Shown in pieces: positions 32,936 to 41,834 of a stretch of DNA of 64,000 nt (the first letter of the stretch is position 1; each line of letters starts with the position of its first letter). A model generated the notes under the pieces. It saw only the letters and a list, made by a program, of their open reading frames with translations, made no database searches and had not been told where the DNA came from. The position numbers and the translations under genes are program-made. Origin of the DNA: Halobaculum sp. MBLA0147 (GTDB taxonomy: Archaea > Halobacteriota > Halobacteria > Halobacteriales > Haloferacaceae); assembly GCF_041361345.1 (NCBI RefSeq), contig NZ_JBGKAD010000003.1, positions 124,001-188,000 of the forward strand, read 5' to 3'.

Positions 32936-33047
32936 TTCTCCGGAGACCGAGGACGACACAGCCACGGGTGACGAGCGAATCATCGGCCACGGGAACCACC
33001 GCATTGAAACGCCCGGTGAGCGAACCGCACGACGACGATCACCACCG

Positions 33048-34112
33048 ATGAGTGACCCGAACCAGCGACCGACGCCGGGCCGTCTCCGCGACAGCATCCG
33101 AGCGGGGACCCACGACGAGACGGTCGCGTATCTCGACCGGCTCGCGGACGCCGACGCCGACACTCGCAAGCGGATCCTCCGGGCCGTGCGGGAGGTCGCC
33201 GACGAGGACCCGACCAGTCTCGACGGACTGGCGGAGCCACTCGCGGCGTTCCTGACCGACGAGGAGCGCGCCGTCCGGTTGACGACCGCGAAGACACTGG
33301 TCGCCGTCGCCGAACACGACCCCGACGGCGTGGTCCCGGTCGTCGACACGCTGGCAGCTCGGTTGGCCGACGAGACGGCGTTCTACTACGTCCGGGCGCG
33401 GTGTGCGGAGGCGTTGGGGTACGTCGCCGTCGAGCGGCCGGACGCGGTGGCGGACCCGGCGACGCTGGCGGACCTCCGGGTCGGGTTGTCGTTCGACCAG
33501 CGTGAGGTGCGCGAGAAACTGGCGAAGGCGCTGGCCCACGTCGCACTCGGGGACCCGAGTCGCCTCCGCCACCAGGTCGCGTCGCTGGCCGACCACCTCG
33601 GGGACGACGCCGACCTCGTGCGCTACCACCTCTGTACGGCGCTCGTCGTGATCGGCTGTGAGTACCCCGAACGCCTCGACGAGGCCGAGTCGGCGCTCCG
33701 GGACCGACTGGCAGCGGAGGAGCCAGACGAGGACCCGTACGTCCGCGGACGGGCGGCAGAGGCCCTCGGGCTGTTGGCCGGATCGGAGGCGGGACTCACG
33801 TCGGTGCCCGACCTCGACGTCGTCCCGAGCGACGACGACCCGCCGTCGTTCCTCACCGACCGCCTCGGCTTCTGTCGGTCGCGACGTCACGGGGCGCCGG
33901 CCGGATCGTCGGAGACGGCCGAGGCGAGTGAGTCCTCCGAGCCGTCCGAGTCGTCGACAGCCAGCGTGGGCACGGTCGCCTCCGTCCGCGAGGGCACCGA
34001 GGCGGTCGTCGCCGAGATGACCGCCCCAGACGGCGAGGAGTGTCCGAGTTGTGGATTGACGCTGCCCAACGGCGGACCGCCGACGTGTCCGGGGTGTGGC
34101 GCTCCACGCTGA
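33048..34112 (+). CDS. HEAT-repeat protein with C-terminal zinc ribbon
   Basis: 354 residues from ATG 33048. Residues about 20-245 are successive helical pairs (AVRLTTAKTLVAVAEHDPDGV, VRARCAEALGYVAVERPDAV, VREKLAKALAHVALGDPSRL), the pattern of HEAT/armadillo-like repeats. A Ser/Glu-rich linker follows. The end is CPSCGLTLPNGGPPTCPGCG, two CxxC pairs of a zinc ribbon. Probably a scaffold for protein-protein contacts. No neighbour gives it a function. Confidence 0.78.
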   Translation: MSDPNQRPTPGRLRDSIRAGTHDETVAYLDRLADADADTRKRILRAVREVADEDPTSLDGLAEPLAAFLTDEERAVRLTTAKTLVAVAEHDPDGVVPVVDTLAARLADETAFYYVRARCAEALGYVAVERPDAVADPATLADLRVGLSFDQREVREKLAKALAHVALGDPSRLRHQVASLADHLGDDADLVRYHLCTALVVIGCEYPERLDEAESALRDRLAAEEPDEDPYVRGRAAEALGLLAGSEAGLTSVPDLDVVPSDDDPPSFLTDRLGFCRSRRHGAPAGSSETAEASESSEPSESSTASVGTVASVREGTEAVVAEMTAPDGEECPSCGLTLPNGGPPTCPGCGAPR

Positions 34113-34242
34113 CTCGCGGCGTGACGCCAGCGACTGCTCCCGGGTCCGGCGTCGTGTGACCGTCCGCCCGGCCGGCCCCCGAGCGTGCGACCGTCGGTTT
34201 CTTCCGGCCAATCCGCCGTGTGGTCGGAAGGTACTTGTACGC

Positions 34243-34258
34243 TTTAGGAACGCCTAAA
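34243..34258. promoter_or_regulatory. DtxR/SirR-type iron operator 1
   Basis: TTTAGG-AACG-CCTAAA, a perfect 6+6 palindrome. It ends 4 nt before the GTG at 34263. Identical arms and identical spacing to the start codon occur at 36469 and 38701. The upstream CTTGTACG is also shared with operator 2. Confidence 0.85.
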
Positions 34259-34262
34259 CCGT

Positions 34263-34412
34263 GTGACAGAGGACACCGGTCGACTGGTGAGGCCGACACG
34301 ACGGTGCAGTGTGGGGGACGACGGCTGGGTCGTCGTCGAGGAGCACTGCCGGATGTGGGACAGTGTCCGGTGTGAGAGACACGGCGCCGGTACCGTGGGG
34401 GTGCTCGGATAG
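34263..34412 (+). CDS. 49-residue Cys/His-containing leader protein of the iron operon
   Basis: A short ORF too small for routine callers. GTG at 34263 lies exactly 4 nt after the iron operator, the same spacing as in the two binding-protein genes, which argues it is the true start of this unit. The stop TAG (34410-34412) directly abuts the permease ATG (34413). Residues Cys15, His28, Cys29, Cys37 and His40 could form a metal site. No family recognised. It could be an iron-sensing regulator, a small permease partner, or a translated leader that couples translation. The spacing and abutment are seen; the role is inferred. Confidence 0.6.
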   Translation: MTEDTGRLVRPTRRCSVGDDGWVVVEEHCRMWDSVRCERHGAGTVGVLG

Positions 34413-35528
34413 ATGGCGACCGAGACGGCGTCCGATCCGGAGCAGCCGAGTCGGCGCGAGCGGTGGCTCGGCTGGATCGACGGCTCGCTGCTCACGCTCG
34501 TCGTCGGGAGCCTCCTCGTCACCGTCGGCGGGGGGCTCGTCCAGGTGAGCTTCGGCGCGTTCTCGATGAGTATCCTCGAGGCGTGGCGGGCCGTCTTCGA
34601 CCCGAACGTGCTGTTGTCCGCGCAGGCGTGGGAGGCGTTCCTGCTCGGCGGCGAACTGCCCGAGATGAACAAACGCAGCCTGATCGTCTGGAACATCCGC
34701 CTCCCGCGCGTGCTGGTCGGCGTGTTCGTGGGGACGAACCTCGCCGTCTCCGGCGCGATCTTCCAGGCGGTGACGCGCAACGAACTCGCCAGTCCGTTCG
34801 TCCTCGGCGTCTCGTCGGGCGCCGGGCTGGCGATCCTGTTGACGCTCGTCGTCTTCTCGGGGCTGTCGGCGGTCCTGCCGATCGTCGCCGCCGTCGGCGG
34901 GGCGGTCGCGTTCCTGATCGTCTACGTCATCGCGTGGAAGAACGGCACCTCGCCGGTTCGATTGGTGCTGGCGGGTGTGATCGTCGGGACCGTCTTCGGG
35001 AGTCTCCAGACGGGACTGTTCTTCTTCGCCGACGACATCGGCGTCGTCCAGTCCGCCATCGCCTGGACGACCGGCTCGTTGACCGGGACCGACTGGGAAC
35101 AAGTCCGGATGGCACTGCCGTGGACCGTCCTGGCGATCGGACTCGCACTTGTCAGCTCCCGCCAGTTGAACGTCCTCTTGCTCGGCGAGGAGACCGCGAG
35201 TTCCCTCGGGATGAACGTCGAGCGGGTCCGGTTCGCGCTGTCGGGCGTGGCGGTGTTGGCCGCGGCCGCGAGCATCGCCGTCGCGGGGATCGTCGGCTTC
35301 GTCGGACTGATCGTCCCGCACATGGTCCGGACAGTCGTCGGGAGCGACTACAAGAAGCTCGTCGTCGGCTGCGTGTTCGCCGGGCCGGCGCTGATGGTCG
35401 CCGCCGACGTCGGGGCCCGCCTCGCGTTCGACCCCGTCCAGATCCCCGTCGGGATCGTCACGGGCCTCGTCGGTGGACCGTACTTCCTCTACCTGATGCG
35501 CAAACAGGAACAGATGGGTGAGATCTGA
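34413..35528 (+). CDS. iron-siderophore ABC permease (FecCD family)
   Basis: 371 residues with about ten hydrophobic segments. LPRVLVGVFVGTNLAVSGAIFQAVTRNELASP, hallmark RLPRVLVG..G..LAVSGAIFQ..TRN.LASP, is the FecCD/BtuC signature, and GFVGLIVPHMVR and DVGARL are present. It channels ferric-siderophore, haem or cobalamin; iron is favoured by the operator and neighbours. Only one permease gene is present, so it should act as a homodimer. The ATG abuts the leader ORF and the stop overlaps the ATPase start (TGATG). Confidence 0.92.
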   Translation: MATETASDPEQPSRRERWLGWIDGSLLTLVVGSLLVTVGGGLVQVSFGAFSMSILEAWRAVFDPNVLLSAQAWEAFLLGGELPEMNKRSLIVWNIRLPRVLVGVFVGTNLAVSGAIFQAVTRNELASPFVLGVSSGAGLAILLTLVVFSGLSAVLPIVAAVGGAVAFLIVYVIAWKNGTSPVRLVLAGVIVGTVFGSLQTGLFFFADDIGVVQSAIAWTTGSLTGTDWEQVRMALPWTVLAIGLALVSSRQLNVLLLGEETASSLGMNVERVRFALSGVAVLAAAASIAVAGIVGFVGLIVPHMVRTVVGSDYKKLVVGCVFAGPALMVAADVGARLAFDPVQIPVGIVTGLVGGPYFLYLMRKQEQMGEI

Positions 35529-36433
35529 TGGCACGACAACGAACCGGCGATCCACGGGAGAACGGGCACAGTTCGGACGGTCCAGACGGACACAGTTCGG
35601 GACAGACCGACGACGATCCGCCGAGCGAGCGTCCCGGCGGTCGCCTCGCCGGAGAGGACCTCGTGTTGTCGTACCCGACCGGCGACGGGCCGGTGGTCGA
35701 CGGGGAGTCGATCACGGCCGAGGCGGGCGCGGTGACGGCACTCGTCGGACCGAACGGCTCCGGGAAGAGTACCCTGCTGAAGGGCCTCGCCGACCAACTG
35801 GAACCCGACGCGGGGTCGGTCCTCGTAGACGGGCGCTCGGTCCAGTCGTTCGACGAGAAGGAACTCGCTCGGACGCTGGGGCTGCTCTCACAGGAGAGCA
35901 CCGCCCCCGACAGCATCACCGTCGAGGATCTCGTCTACCACGGGCGGTATCCACACCGCGGGTTCTTCGAGCACACGACCGCCGAGGACGAGCGAGCCAT
36001 CGACCGCGCCGTCGAGTTGGCCGGCTGTGGCCACCTCCGCGACCGCGAGGTGGGGAGTCTCAGCGGGGGGCAGAAACAACTCGCCTGGATCGCGATGGTG
36101 CTCGCCCAGGACACCGACGTGCTCTTGCTCGACGAGCCGACGACGTTCCTCGACTTACACCACCAACTGGAGGTGATGGAGATCGTCGAGACGCTCCGCG
36201 AGGAGAGCGACATCACCGTCGTGGTGGTCCTCCACGACATCCAGCAGGCGGCACGCCTCGCCGACGAGATGGTGGCGTTGCGTGACGGGGAGATCCAGGC
36301 GCGTGGCCCGCCGGAGTCCGTCGTCACCGAGTCGCTGCTCGCGGAGGTGTTCGACGTCGAAGCCGAGGTCGAACACACCCCACGCGGCCCCCGGATCGAC
36401 CCGCTGCGCCCCCGACCCGACGGACGCGAGTGA
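35528..36433 (+). CDS. iron-siderophore ABC ATPase (FecE-like)
   Basis: 301 residues with a Ser/Gly/Asp-rich head of about 40. Walker A GPNGSGKST, signature LSGGQKQ, Walker B VLLLDEPTT and switch HDIQQAARLAD are intact. QESTAPDSITVEDLVYHGRYPH matches FecE/FhuC ATPases, hallmark VEDLV..GRYPH. Overlaps the permease stop by one base. Followed 55 bp later by its likely binding protein under a separate copy of the operator. Confidence 0.92.
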   Translation: MARQRTGDPRENGHSSDGPDGHSSGQTDDDPPSERPGGRLAGEDLVLSYPTGDGPVVDGESITAEAGAVTALVGPNGSGKSTLLKGLADQLEPDAGSVLVDGRSVQSFDEKELARTLGLLSQESTAPDSITVEDLVYHGRYPHRGFFEHTTAEDERAIDRAVELAGCGHLRDREVGSLSGGQKQLAWIAMVLAQDTDVLLLDEPTTFLDLHHQLEVMEIVETLREESDITVVVVLHDIQQAARLADEMVALRDGEIQARGPPESVVTESLLAEVFDVEAEVEHTPRGPRIDPLRPRPDGRE

Positions 36434-36468: not shown

Positions 36469-36484
36469 TTTAGGTTCGCCTAAA
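36469..36484. promoter_or_regulatory. DtxR/SirR-type iron operator 2
   Basis: TTTAGG-TTCG-CCTAAA, perfect arms, 4 nt before the ATG at 36489. Same layout as operators 1 and 3. Confidence 0.85.
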
Positions 36485-36488
36485 TCGT

Positions 36489-37736
36489 ATGGCAGACGAG
36501 CCACGAGACGAGACGACGCGAACACGCAGAGAGTACGTGAAGTACGGCGGCGCAGTCGTCGGTGGTGGGCTCCTCGCCGGCTGTGCGGGGCAGTCGGAGT
36601 CCGGCGCGGGTGAGACGACGACGGAGACGGCCACCGCGACCGAAACGCCGACACCGACAGAGACGGAGGGAGAGACCGAGACCCCCACGGCGACCGACGA
36701 GAGTTGGTCGGTAGAGTTGTCGCCGGTCGGCAGCGTCGAGTTCGACGCCGTCCCGGAGGAGGCGGTCGTCTACTCCAACCACGACGCGGACATCCTCGTG
36801 TCACTCGGACAGGCGGACGCGATCCAGTCGCTCGGGTTCCCGGAGAACTACAGCGCCACTTACTACGACGAACTGCCGGGGGTCTCGCTGGACACCGACG
36901 ACCTGACGCAGATCTACGACGACGGGGTCGACAAGGAGATCTTCTACGAACTCGAAGCCGACGTTCACCACATCGACCCGGTCTGGTTCTCCAGTTGGTC
37001 GTCGTTCGACGAGGCGGACGTCGAGGAGTTGTCGTCGAACGTCGCCCCGTTCTTCGCCAACTACCACAGTCGGACGAACGTCGCCCCCGAATCCGCCTCG
37101 AACTACCAGTTCTACTCCATCTGGGAACTCGTCGACAAGTACGCCCGTGTCTACCAGGTGCCGGAGCGTGGTGAGCGGCTGAAGGCGATCCGCGACGGAA
37201 TGCTGGAGGACATCCAGGCGGAACTGCCGCCGGAGTCGGAGCGCCCGGAGGTGGGTGTCGTCTGGTACGACCGCGAGAAGGAGTCGTTCTGGGTGTACCA
37301 CCTGAACGCGCCCGGGTTCCAGAACGCCCACACGCGGCCGCTGGGTGCGAACGACGCGCTCGCGGAGCTCCCGAGCGGCCCGCGCAGCGGGTGGTCCGAC
37401 AGCGCACTGATCGGGATGGAGGCGATGCTGGAGGTGGACCCGGACGTGTTGGTCCACTTCTCCGACTGGCAGAACCCCGACGAGGCGACGGAGGCGTTCT
37501 TCGCGCTGGAGGACCACCCGGTCGGGAGCCAGTTGACGGCGGTACAGAACGACCGGCTCTACGCCGGCGGCGACGCCTTCCAGGGGCCGATCATCAACAT
37601 CTTCCAGACGGAACTCACGGCCAAGCAGTTCTACCCGGACCTGTTCGGCCAGCCGCCGGAGCCGGGCAACACCGGCGACCTGGGCGAGTTGTTCGACCCG
37701 CAGGCGGTCGCAGACGTGATCACCGGGGACGACTGA
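36489..37736 (+). CDS. iron-siderophore binding lipoprotein 1
   Basis: 415 residues. Tat signal TRREYVKYGGAVVGGGLLAGC with lipobox, then a Thr/Glu/Pro spacer (about 34-70). The mature domain (VPEEAVVYSNHDADILVSLGQADAIQSLG and later QTELTAKQFYPDLFG) is a FepB/FecB-type periplasmic binding fold, anchored outside the membrane. Its start shares near-identical DNA with the paralogue at 38721 (CGCAGAGAGTACGTGAAGTA), evidence of duplication. Own iron operator. 7 bp upstream of the flavoprotein gene, so probably bicistronic. Confidence 0.9.
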   Translation: MADEPRDETTRTRREYVKYGGAVVGGGLLAGCAGQSESGAGETTTETATATETPTPTETEGETETPTATDESWSVELSPVGSVEFDAVPEEAVVYSNHDADILVSLGQADAIQSLGFPENYSATYYDELPGVSLDTDDLTQIYDDGVDKEIFYELEADVHHIDPVWFSSWSSFDEADVEELSSNVAPFFANYHSRTNVAPESASNYQFYSIWELVDKYARVYQVPERGERLKAIRDGMLEDIQAELPPESERPEVGVVWYDREKESFWVYHLNAPGFQNAHTRPLGANDALAELPSGPRSGWSDSALIGMEAMLEVDPDVLVHFSDWQNPDEATEAFFALEDHPVGSQLTAVQNDRLYAGGDAFQGPIINIFQTELTAKQFYPDLFGQPPEPGNTGDLGELFDPQAVADVITGDD

Positions 37737-37743
37737 TCGAGCG

Positions 37744-38616
37744 ATGCCGACGGCACAGTCGGACCCGGACGTGCTCGTCGTCGGCGGGGGGCCGGCGGGC
37801 TGTTCGGCGGCCGTCTTCACCGCCAGGTACGACCTCGACACGCTCGTACTGGACCGGGGCCACTCCTCGCTCCAGCAGTGTGCGTTCGTCGAGAACTACC
37901 TCGGGTTCCCCGGCGGCATCGACGTGGCGACGCTGTACCGGACGATGCACGCTCACGTCGAGCGAGTCGGCGGAACCGTCGTCGACGACATGGTGACGGA
38001 ACTCACCGAGACGGACGCCGGGTTCCGCGTCGAGACGCAAGGGGGCACGTACACGGCAGACCGGGTCGTCGCCGCCTCGACGTACGACGTGAGCTACCTC
38101 GAGAGTGTACTCGGCGAGCACTTCGAGTCGGACGGTGGCGAGACGTGGCTCGATCCGGAGTTGGCCGGGGAGCGCGGGGAGACACCCGTCGACGGGTTGT
38201 GGCTCGCCGGCCCGACCGCGGGAGTCGAGAGCCAGATCGCCGTCGCCGTCGGCCACGGCGCCCGCGTCGGCGTCGCCCTCGTCGAGGCGTACCGCCGCGA
38301 GGCGGAGAACATCTGGCCGGGGTCGGCCGACTACACGGACTGGGTCGTCCAACAGGGACGCTACGAGGGCGAAGAGTGGCTGGAGACGGCGACCGGTTGG
38401 CACCTGGAGGCCGCACCAGAGGACCGCGACGAGGAGGCGGTCCGGGAACTGGCACGCGACCTCGCGGAGCGCCAGCAGGCCCAACAGATCGGCGAGGCGG
38501 AGGTCGCCAGCCGCACCGAGCGCGCCCACCGCCGGCTGCTCGCCCACCTCGACGACGACCTGGTCCTCGAACGGGCACGCGAGATCGAGGCCGAGCGGGC
38601 GGCCGGGGACGGCTGA
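37744..38616 (+). CDS. FAD-dependent oxidoreductase, thioredoxin-reductase-like, in iron operon
   Basis: 290 residues. The FAD motif VVGGGPAGCSAAVFTARY is at the start and the second FAD-binding motif is GLWLAGPTAGVESQIAVAVGHGARVG. The central NADPH domain and the redox CxxC of thioredoxin reductase are missing, and a Glu/Arg-rich helical tail (about 200-290) follows. Position after an iron-binding protein gene suggests release of iron from the siderophore by reduction, or siderophore modification. That is inference; the electron donor is unknown. Confidence 0.75.
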   Translation: MPTAQSDPDVLVVGGGPAGCSAAVFTARYDLDTLVLDRGHSSLQQCAFVENYLGFPGGIDVATLYRTMHAHVERVGGTVVDDMVTELTETDAGFRVETQGGTYTADRVVAASTYDVSYLESVLGEHFESDGGETWLDPELAGERGETPVDGLWLAGPTAGVESQIAVAVGHGARVGVALVEAYRREAENIWPGSADYTDWVVQQGRYEGEEWLETATGWHLEAAPEDRDEEAVRELARDLAERQQAQQIGEAEVASRTERAHRRLLAHLDDDLVLERAREIEAERAAGDG

Positions 38617-38700
38617 ACCGAGAGTGACACCACTCCGGTGACCCACCGATCCCGACGCCGTCGCTGGGTTCCGGCGGAAGTTCGAAACCCACTTCAACTG

Positions 38701-38716
38701 TTTAGGCTGGCCTAAA
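38701..38716. promoter_or_regulatory. DtxR/SirR-type iron operator 3
   Basis: TTTAGG-CTGG-CCTAAA, perfect arms, 4 nt before the ATG at 38721. Third copy of the same element and the same spacing. Confidence 0.85.
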
Positions 38717-38720
38717 ACAC

Positions 38721-39977
38721 ATGGCACGAGAGCCAGCCGGCGAGGAGGCACCAACACGCAGAGAGTACGTGAAGTACGGGGGCGCAGTCGTCGGTAGCGG
38801 CCTGCTCGCCGGCTGTGCGGAGCAGTCGGCGACCGAGACACCGACGGGAACTGAACCGGACACGGAGGCGCCGACGGCGTCGAAGACGGAGACGGAGACC
38901 GCGACACCGGACGACGGGTACTCGGTGTCGTTGGCGCCGGCCGGCGAGGTCTCCTTCGAGGAGGTGCCGGAGGAGGTGTTCACCATCCTCGGGCACCACG
39001 CCGACATGCTGGTCGCGCTCGGTCGTGGCGACGACATCAACGCCGTGCACGCGCCGGAGTACCACCAGTCGCTGTACGAGAAGTTCCTGCACCACCTGGA
39101 GGGTGTCTCCGTCGACTGGGAGGGACTCTACTCCTCGTGGCCGCCGACGAAGGAGAAGCTGTACGAACTCGACAGCGACGTGCACGTCGCCGACCCGGCG
39201 AAGGTCGCGACCGCCGACGGGTGGGACGACGACGACGTTCGCGAGGTGGCAGACACCGTCGCCCCGTGGGTCGGGAACACCCTCAGTGGGACGCACGAAC
39301 AGCCTCCGACTGGCTGGCGCGATCGGTACGAGTACTACACGCTGTGGGAGATCTTCGCGGAGATCGCACGACTGTTCCGAGCGACCGACCGGTACGAGGC
39401 GTTGGCCGCCGTCCGGGAGAGCCTCCGCGAGCGGATCGCCACGGACCTCCCGCCGGAGAGCGAGCGACCGACGGCGGCGCTGGTGTTGTTCGCCGCAGAG
39501 GAGGAGAAGGCGTGGGGGTACAAGCTGAACCACCCGGGGTACTACGCCGCCCACACGCGCCCGATGGGCGTGACGGACGCACTCGCCGAGGCCGTCGGCG
39601 AGGGGTACGGCGACGACGGCCGGAACGTCACCCTCGACTACGAGACCTTGCTGGAGGCCGACCCGGACGTGTTGCTCGTCTTGGGACCGATGACGGGCTA
39701 CTTCGACCTCGGCGAGATCCGGTCGCGACTGGCCGATCACGAGGTCGCGAGTGAACTCACCGCCGTCGAGACGGGCCGGGTGTACGCACAGGGTGCGCGG
39801 CGCCAGGGGCCGATCCTCGAACTGTTCCAGACTGAGATGACGGCGAAGCAACTCTACCCCGACCAGTTCGGCGAGTGGCCGGGCTACGTGGACGGCGAGC
39901 CGTACCCGGAGATTCCCGCCGAGGAGCGCCTCTTCGACCGCGAGCGGGTCGCAGACGTGATCCGCGGCGATCTCTGA
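38721..39977 (+). CDS. iron-siderophore binding lipoprotein 2
   Basis: 418 residues. Tat/lipobox signal TRREYVKYGGAVVGSGLLAGC, Thr/Glu-rich spacer, then the same fold as its paralogue at 36489 (VPEEVFTILGHHADMLVALGRGDDI; QTEMTAKQLYPDQFG). Sequence between the conserved ends has diverged, so ligand specificity may differ. Monocistronic under iron operator 3. It probably shares the single permease/ATPase set upstream. Confidence 0.9.
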   Translation: MAREPAGEEAPTRREYVKYGGAVVGSGLLAGCAEQSATETPTGTEPDTEAPTASKTETETATPDDGYSVSLAPAGEVSFEEVPEEVFTILGHHADMLVALGRGDDINAVHAPEYHQSLYEKFLHHLEGVSVDWEGLYSSWPPTKEKLYELDSDVHVADPAKVATADGWDDDDVREVADTVAPWVGNTLSGTHEQPPTGWRDRYEYYTLWEIFAEIARLFRATDRYEALAAVRESLRERIATDLPPESERPTAALVLFAAEEEKAWGYKLNHPGYYAAHTRPMGVTDALAEAVGEGYGDDGRNVTLDYETLLEADPDVLLVLGPMTGYFDLGEIRSRLADHEVASELTAVETGRVYAQGARRQGPILELFQTEMTAKQLYPDQFGEWPGYVDGEPYPEIPAEERLFDRERVADVIRGDL

Positions 39978-41690: not shown

Positions 41691-41702
41691 GTGCTGGGGG
41701 AG
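41663..41702 (+). promoter_or_regulatory. hairpin enclosing the start codon of the zinc-ribbon gene
   Basis: Outer stem CTCCCCC / GGGGGAG (7 bp), a 3-nt internal mismatch, inner stem ACGTGT / ACACGT (6 bp) and an 8-nt loop. The GTG at 41691 lies in the 3' side of the inner stem. Could sequester the start in the RNA, or be a DNA operator. Confidence 0.55.
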
Positions 41703-41834
41703 ATCAAGCGCCTCTTCGTCGGAACGGAGAGTACACGGGCGGTGGTCGAGTGTCGACACTGCGGTGTCTCGCACGACGAGCACGCCGAGAACTGTGTGCA
41801 GTGCGGCGGCGACGTGACCAGCTACGACGTGTAG
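41691..41834 (+). CDS. 47-residue zinc-ribbon protein
   Basis: Too short for standard ORF calling. GTG start, then LGEIKRLFVGTESTRAVVECRHCG...CVQCGGDVTSYDV: two CxxCG knuckles (ECRHCG and NCVQCGG) 13 residues apart, the classic zinc ribbon. No other start is available after the upstream in-frame stop. Haloarchaea encode many such micro-proteins of unknown role; regulation by protein or nucleic-acid contact is likely. Confidence 0.72.
   Translation: MLGEIKRLFVGTESTRAVVECRHCGVSHDEHAENCVQCGGDVTSYDV

Follow-up and report, generated by a model that had tools for sequence, protein, structure and literature searches.

Proposed reinitiation in an iron-uptake operon

Termination-reinitiation between overlapping genes has been established experimentally in Haloferax volcanii, where Shine-Dalgarno (SD) motifs are not used in de novo initiation (PMC6728339). 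The process is sensitive to distance: it falls clearly at 13/14 nt and has almost vanished at 22/23 nt. Of the upstream gene, the final 15 nt are enough for it (PMC10666635). Small upstream ORFs (uORFs) are also on record for the same species: the accessible part of a report on long 5′ UTRs describes ORFs of 15-31 aa before normal genes, found in 16/97 transcripts with UTRs of 150-250 nt and having low isoelectric points (PMC4983044).

The locus considered here lies in a 64,000-nt stretch of a Halobaculum sp. MBLA0147 contig (NZ_JBGKAD010000003.1; hereafter the window), which carries a haloarchaeal iron-uptake cluster on the + strand. The fecCD permease (34413-35528; Pfam FecCD, 2.4e-90) is the first gene proper of this operon, and TGATG at 35526-35530 joins it, with a 1-nt overlap, to a FecE-type ATPase gene (35528-36433, assigned by domain searches). 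Downstream lie two binding-protein paralogues, BP1 (36489-37736; Pfam Peripla_BP_2, 1.4e-11), a predicted Tat-lipoprotein that binds iron, and BP2 (38721-39977; Peripla_BP_2, 7e-9). Both have an operator of their own, and between them, within 36489-39977, lies a flavin oxidoreductase that resembles thioredoxin reductase (37744-38616, domain searches). Upstream of the leader, positions 33039-34112 encode a HEAT-repeat protein whose C terminus carries a zinc ribbon; in another genome (L031) a similar gene end also stands upstream of fecCD, which makes the neighbourhood partly syntenic.

Motif searches of the window gave three TTTAGG-N4-CCTAAA sites, before fecCD (34243-34258, reading TTTAGGAACGCCTAAA; a putative iron box of the DtxR-family type), BP1 (36469-36484) and BP2 (38701-38716), where shuffles lead one to expect 0.05 and 0/100 shuffled windows held all three. 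Genome-wide, TTAGG-N4-CCTAA occurs 14 times (0 for a reversed-pattern control), and the boxes stand ahead of genes for binding proteins, of fecCD and of a Fe_dep_repress gene, as would be expected of a DtxR-type iron regulon. The preliminary description of this DNA, which had placed a short ORF first in an iron operon, is supported on that point.

That ORF, which we call the leader, occupies 34263-34412 (150 nt; 49 codons, GTG start, TAG stop; translation MTEDTGRLVRPTRRCSVGDDGWVVVEEHCRMWDSVRCERHGAGTVGVLG). Its GTG lies 4 nt past CCTAAA, an offset identical to that of the BP1 and BP2 ATGs at 36489 and 38721, and its TAG (34410-34412) directly abuts the fecCD ATG at 34413, giving a TAG|ATG junction (34410-34415) at distance 0; both observations had been made before and are borne out by the sequence. 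Leader and fecCD share a reading frame. This geometry is more than chance, because shuffling the leader interior brings a stop within −14 to +10 nt of the fecCD start in only 1.9% of cases and into exact abutment in 0.24%, and the junction falls within the range, overlap or ~10 nt, of haloarchaeal termination-reinitiation. Inside the leader, 9 nt ahead of the fecCD ATG, stands an imperfect SD-like word, GGGGGTG (34397-34403), with an exact match of 4 nt. A further GTG at 34261 is followed directly by TGA and is therefore a one-codon ORF.

The promoter elements suggest where the transcript would begin. A BRE-like CGGAA (34225-34229) lies at −38 to −34 from the leader start and a weak TATA-like CTTGTA (34234-34239) at −29 to −24. 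When 24 leader promoters that have the commonest offset are aligned on the start codon, CGAAA peaks at −37 to −33, and positions −29 to −26 are T or A in 87-100% of them; the BP1 promoter, for its part, has CGAAA at −38 to −34, and BP1 too would start leaderless. BRE and TATA at such distances are spaced as in haloarchaeal promoters of leaderless transcripts. The class profile shows this spacing, some 25-38 nt before the start codon, albeit with a weak TATA in the window itself, and the mRNA would accordingly be expected to open with the leader start codon. Could the promoter have been copied from BP1? It shares 35/48 positions with BP1, yet also 35/48 with another site (L110), so the likeness is unspecific and we rejected the idea. 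Elsewhere (L044, L048, L050, L090, L099, L100 and Haloferax loci), paired operators stand 34-36 bp apart before iron genes: the first precedes the BRE/TATA region and the second lies beside the start.

We think it likely that 34263-34412 is a leaderless launch ORF, one that feeds ribosomes to fecCD by termination-reinitiation and whose peptide is of little or no importance. An iron-regulated promoter would yield a leaderless mRNA opening with GTG34263; ribosomes would load at this 5′-terminal codon, translate a peptide whose sequence barely matters, terminate at the TAG and begin again at the fecCD ATG next to it, before reaching the ATPase gene through the TGATG. Such ORFs would arise where a promoter comes to lie before a gene that does not itself begin at the transcript 5′ end. 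Because reinitiation fades with distance and SD motifs are not used de novo, it is plausible that ribosomes can reach a gene 150 nt from the 5′ end only along a translated stretch. Against this proposal stand the GTG start, the weak TATA, the GTG at 34261 with its immediate TGA, and the imperfect SD-like word.

Recurrence at fecCD and at unrelated genes

The architecture recurs well beyond the window. From 234 fecCD loci we retained 184 non-redundant upstream regions, 75 of them with an operator. In 28 of these 75, fecCD itself starts a few nt past the operator; in 41, an unrelated short ORF of 9-65 aa begins beside it, most often at the exact offset seen in the window. It is the architecture that is conserved. 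Their stops lie between −14 and +10 nt of a fecCD start in 39/41 cases (dinucleotide shuffles of the interior: mean 15.8, maximum 23), although this count is biased upwards, because each distance may be measured to whichever candidate fecCD start lies closest; the tight class, with stops at −4, −1, 0, +1 or +2, is less exposed to this and holds 26/41 (shuffles: mean 8.0, maximum 12). The other two frames of the real leader sequences give 3 and 12 near stops. When leaders are grouped by hand into 19 lineages, 18 are near and 12 tight, where 1000 shuffles give 7.4 (maximum 13) and 4.2 (maximum 8); the two leaders that do not fit (L129 and L206) belong to one lineage. SD-like words of at least 5 nt precede the main start in 19/41 leaders, against 5.7 expected from shuffled windows (maximum 13).

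The same arrangement is found before unrelated genes. In this genome, the dtxR-type regulator (Fe_dep_repress, 1.4e-11; contig C1, operator at 674422; L103 1501-1580) is preceded by an operator, an ATG and a 20-aa ORF ending in GTGA, a 4-nt overlap with the regulator start, and the regulator, which carries the operator, is likely autoregulated. Its counterparts in five relatives have leaders of 11, 9, 43, 42 and 17 aa, all with the exact 4-nt overlap; those of 43 and 42 aa are related to each other and the rest are unrelated. A survey of every operator in the collected loci counted 89 direct gene starts, 50 leader-coupled genes (25 at −4) and 16 others, and is less strict than the fecCD test, because G+C-rich DNA yields spurious long ORFs. 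Among the coupled genes are fecCD, the oxidoreductase and dtxR, besides a handful without an assigned function, and the oxidoreductase and dtxR leaders mostly show the 4-nt overlap; the oxidoreductase appears to be coupled to a launch ORF in several relatives. At a further site in this genome (C1:2362805; L105 1501-1530), the operator is followed by ATG GGT GGG TGATG, which may be a launch ORF of three codons that overlaps a 430-aa gene by 1 nt.

The best-surviving alternative, which we nevertheless consider unlikely, is that these 150 nt go untranslated, as part of a normal 5′ UTR or as a decayed stretch, and that the ORF is open by chance, fecCD starting on its own and the TAG being inherited from an ancestral junction where an upstream gene stopped right before fecCD. 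Chance ORFs are common at high G+C, and in relatives such as L116 and L023 an upstream gene does end in TAG directly before the same ATGGCGAC. Against an untranslated remnant stand the clustering of stops at the gene start over 19 lineages and in unrelated genes, the one preferred distance of the start codon, and homologous leaders in Natrinema and Halococcus, which keep their frame although their lengths vary by complete codons. For the groups that permit an alignment of leaders (Natrinema, Halococcus and Haloterrigena relatives), lengths such as 60/62 and 62/63 were found, leader dN/dS lies at 0.37-1.06, and substitutions are spread about equally over the three codon positions, while fecCD dN in the same groups is 0.00-0.04 among measurable pairs. 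This is the pattern that would be expected if frame and stop matter and residues hardly do.

The peptide and the origin of the leaders

The preliminary description took the leader for a hidden Cys/His micro-protein that might bind metal and sense iron, assist the permease or gate its translation. Its Cys15, His28, Cys29, Cys37 and His40 are where it placed them, three Cys and two His among 49 residues, and haloarchaea are rich in small proteins, as far as the accessible text of PMC10716476 goes. The peptide has no match in Pfam or NCBIfam, in keeping with the earlier remark that no family could be recognised; a search of 60 relatives returned chance-level matches only (best non-self E 0.008); AlphaFold2 gave a pLDDT of 48.6 and no confident fold; and the 49 residues contain neither a CXXC nor a C(P)XCG motif, two of the latter being the mark of a zinc-finger micro-protein. 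Cys is wholly absent from 25 of the 41 comparable leaders. A genuine small protein could have been picked up, because our positive control, a DUF7331-like protein of 60 aa behind the same operator type in the same genome, was found in 35/40 genomes searched. This control (L104; C1:2130208-2130387, − strand) starts 8 nt past the operator core and matches DUF7331 just under the Pfam cut-off; it appears to be a true small protein belonging to this regulon. A typical zinc micro-protein candidate, unlike the leader ORF, is a 47-aa ORF at 41691-41834 of the window, which carries CRHC...CVQC, a two-CXXC arrangement.

In the nearest relative that has the gene, the only congener where a fecCD gene was found (L117; L021 is identical in sequence), the operator, the offset and the GTG are the same as in the window, and with the alignment anchored at the start codon the first 35 nt of the leader can be aligned (P 0.0025 for the part past the first 12 nt). 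A 2-nt indel then shifts the frame, leaving a 9-codon ORF, MTDDSRVEG, which lacks Cys and His and stops 8 nt before fecCD. The refutation test set by the preliminary description therefore has a split outcome: the proximity of stop and start is kept among relatives, whereas the frame and the Cys/His residues are not. Of the roles proposed earlier, gating or feeding the translation of fecCD fits best; the leader ORF is most likely not a metal-binding protein, and a functional Cys/His micro-protein that senses iron or assists the permease strikes us as very improbable.

We give no more credence to an attenuator or sensor leader, in which specific codons or an RNA fold would report the iron or amino-acid state. 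The leader does sit between a regulated promoter and the permease, and its RNA folds slightly better than shuffles (z −1.59), but 18/200 shuffles fold equally well, Rfam returns no match, there is neither a codon run nor a conserved peptide, and leader length ranges from 9 to 65 aa. Least probable of all is suppression of the TAG to fuse the 49 residues to FecCD: the window leader is in frame with fecCD, and L031 shows an extension of 18 residues in frame, uninterrupted by a stop, but the majority of leaders are read in a different frame from fecCD and many FecCD homologues align from the ATG.

Where, then, would launch ORFs come from? Haloferax offers a series. At two loci (L078, L029) the operator leads into a full-length binding-protein gene, behind which comes the oxidoreductase; in Hfx. 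mucosum (L056 2562-3023), a 153-aa binding-protein remnant overlaps the oxidoreductase by 4 nt (−4), and this truncated gene is an erosion intermediate; three more (L084, L095, L097) have a 21-aa ORF, MNEDGADFDHAFRRAVLTGAV, that stops 3 nt before the oxidoreductase (+3). The fecCD leader of L066 is a binding-protein signal peptide (HMM score 32.2, 0/200 shuffles), and so, judged by eye, is the leader before the oxidoreductase in L093 (MARHTDEGGPTRHDAIGYGGAVVGTGFLAGC). In several lineages, then, the leader ORF is what erosion has left of the 5′ end of a binding-protein gene. In the window, the same origin is possible but weakly supported: its leader shares P11 T12 R13 R14, V17, G21, V23 and V24 with BP2 in register (p about 0.0002-0.01, varying with the stretch, which was chosen post hoc), but the binding-protein HMM does not bear this out (p = 0.16), and searches for a DNA source of the leader interior found short G+C-rich matches everywhere and identified none.

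Launch ORFs and known systems

It is tempting to generalise, and we do so tentatively, rating the idea somewhat short of even: haloarchaeal iron regulons may use sequence-indifferent launch ORFs, largely products of binding-protein gene erosion, as a general device, such that binding proteins start at the first base and the permease, oxidoreductase and regulator are reached only by reinitiation. If so, reinitiation would lower and fix the yield of these three relative to the high-output binding protein. The series also outlines a route by which the 5′ end of a dying gene could be retained as a translation starter. As start and stop look selected and the peptide near free, launch ORFs would be a clean natural case of translation for delivery only. 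Promoter-proximal small ORFs are often annotated as 'micro-proteins' or ignored, and we would predict that haloarchaeal gene starts and small-protein catalogues need a launch-ORF category. A testable question follows: is internal initiation possible on a leaderless archaeal mRNA, or is the first codon obligatory?

In the literature covered, which is partial, we found no description of regulon-wide leaderless, sequence-indifferent launch ORFs in archaea, nor of an origin from eroded genes. The haloarchaeal DtxR/SirR/Idr/TroR iron regulons (cited in PMC11349517) are alike in their iron genes and in having a regulator of the same family within the regulon, and the accessible parts of this likewise partially covered literature make no mention of leader ORFs. 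With the reinitiating gene pairs of H. volcanii (PMC6728339, PMC10666635), our leaders have in common the ATGA/TGATG or near-touching stop and start, the strong dependence on distance and, although imperfect in the window, an SD-like motif; in those pairs, however, both members are ordinary genes, whereas here the upstream member is a short, unconserved ORF at what is presumably the first base of the transcript. The uORFs of long 5′ UTRs are similar in being small ORFs before normal genes, but unlike our leaders they are not described, in the accessible part of PMC4983044, as tied to a single operator or as systematically overlapping stop with start. A leaderless bicistronic design for Corynebacterium glutamicum comes close in plan, with a leaderless promoter, a first cistron and a coupled second one, although that design, as the accessible text of PMC10367133 presents it, is engineered and bacterial. 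The components are all known already: leaderless mRNAs, uORFs, reinitiation, and the short ORF that delivers ribosomes. This last is the role that a review (PMC12548453) assigns to a short uORF that 'delivers' a ribosome to a coupled gene; there it is a general proposal, whereas the haloarchaeal iron genes would provide a regulon-wide archaeal series with a traceable origin.
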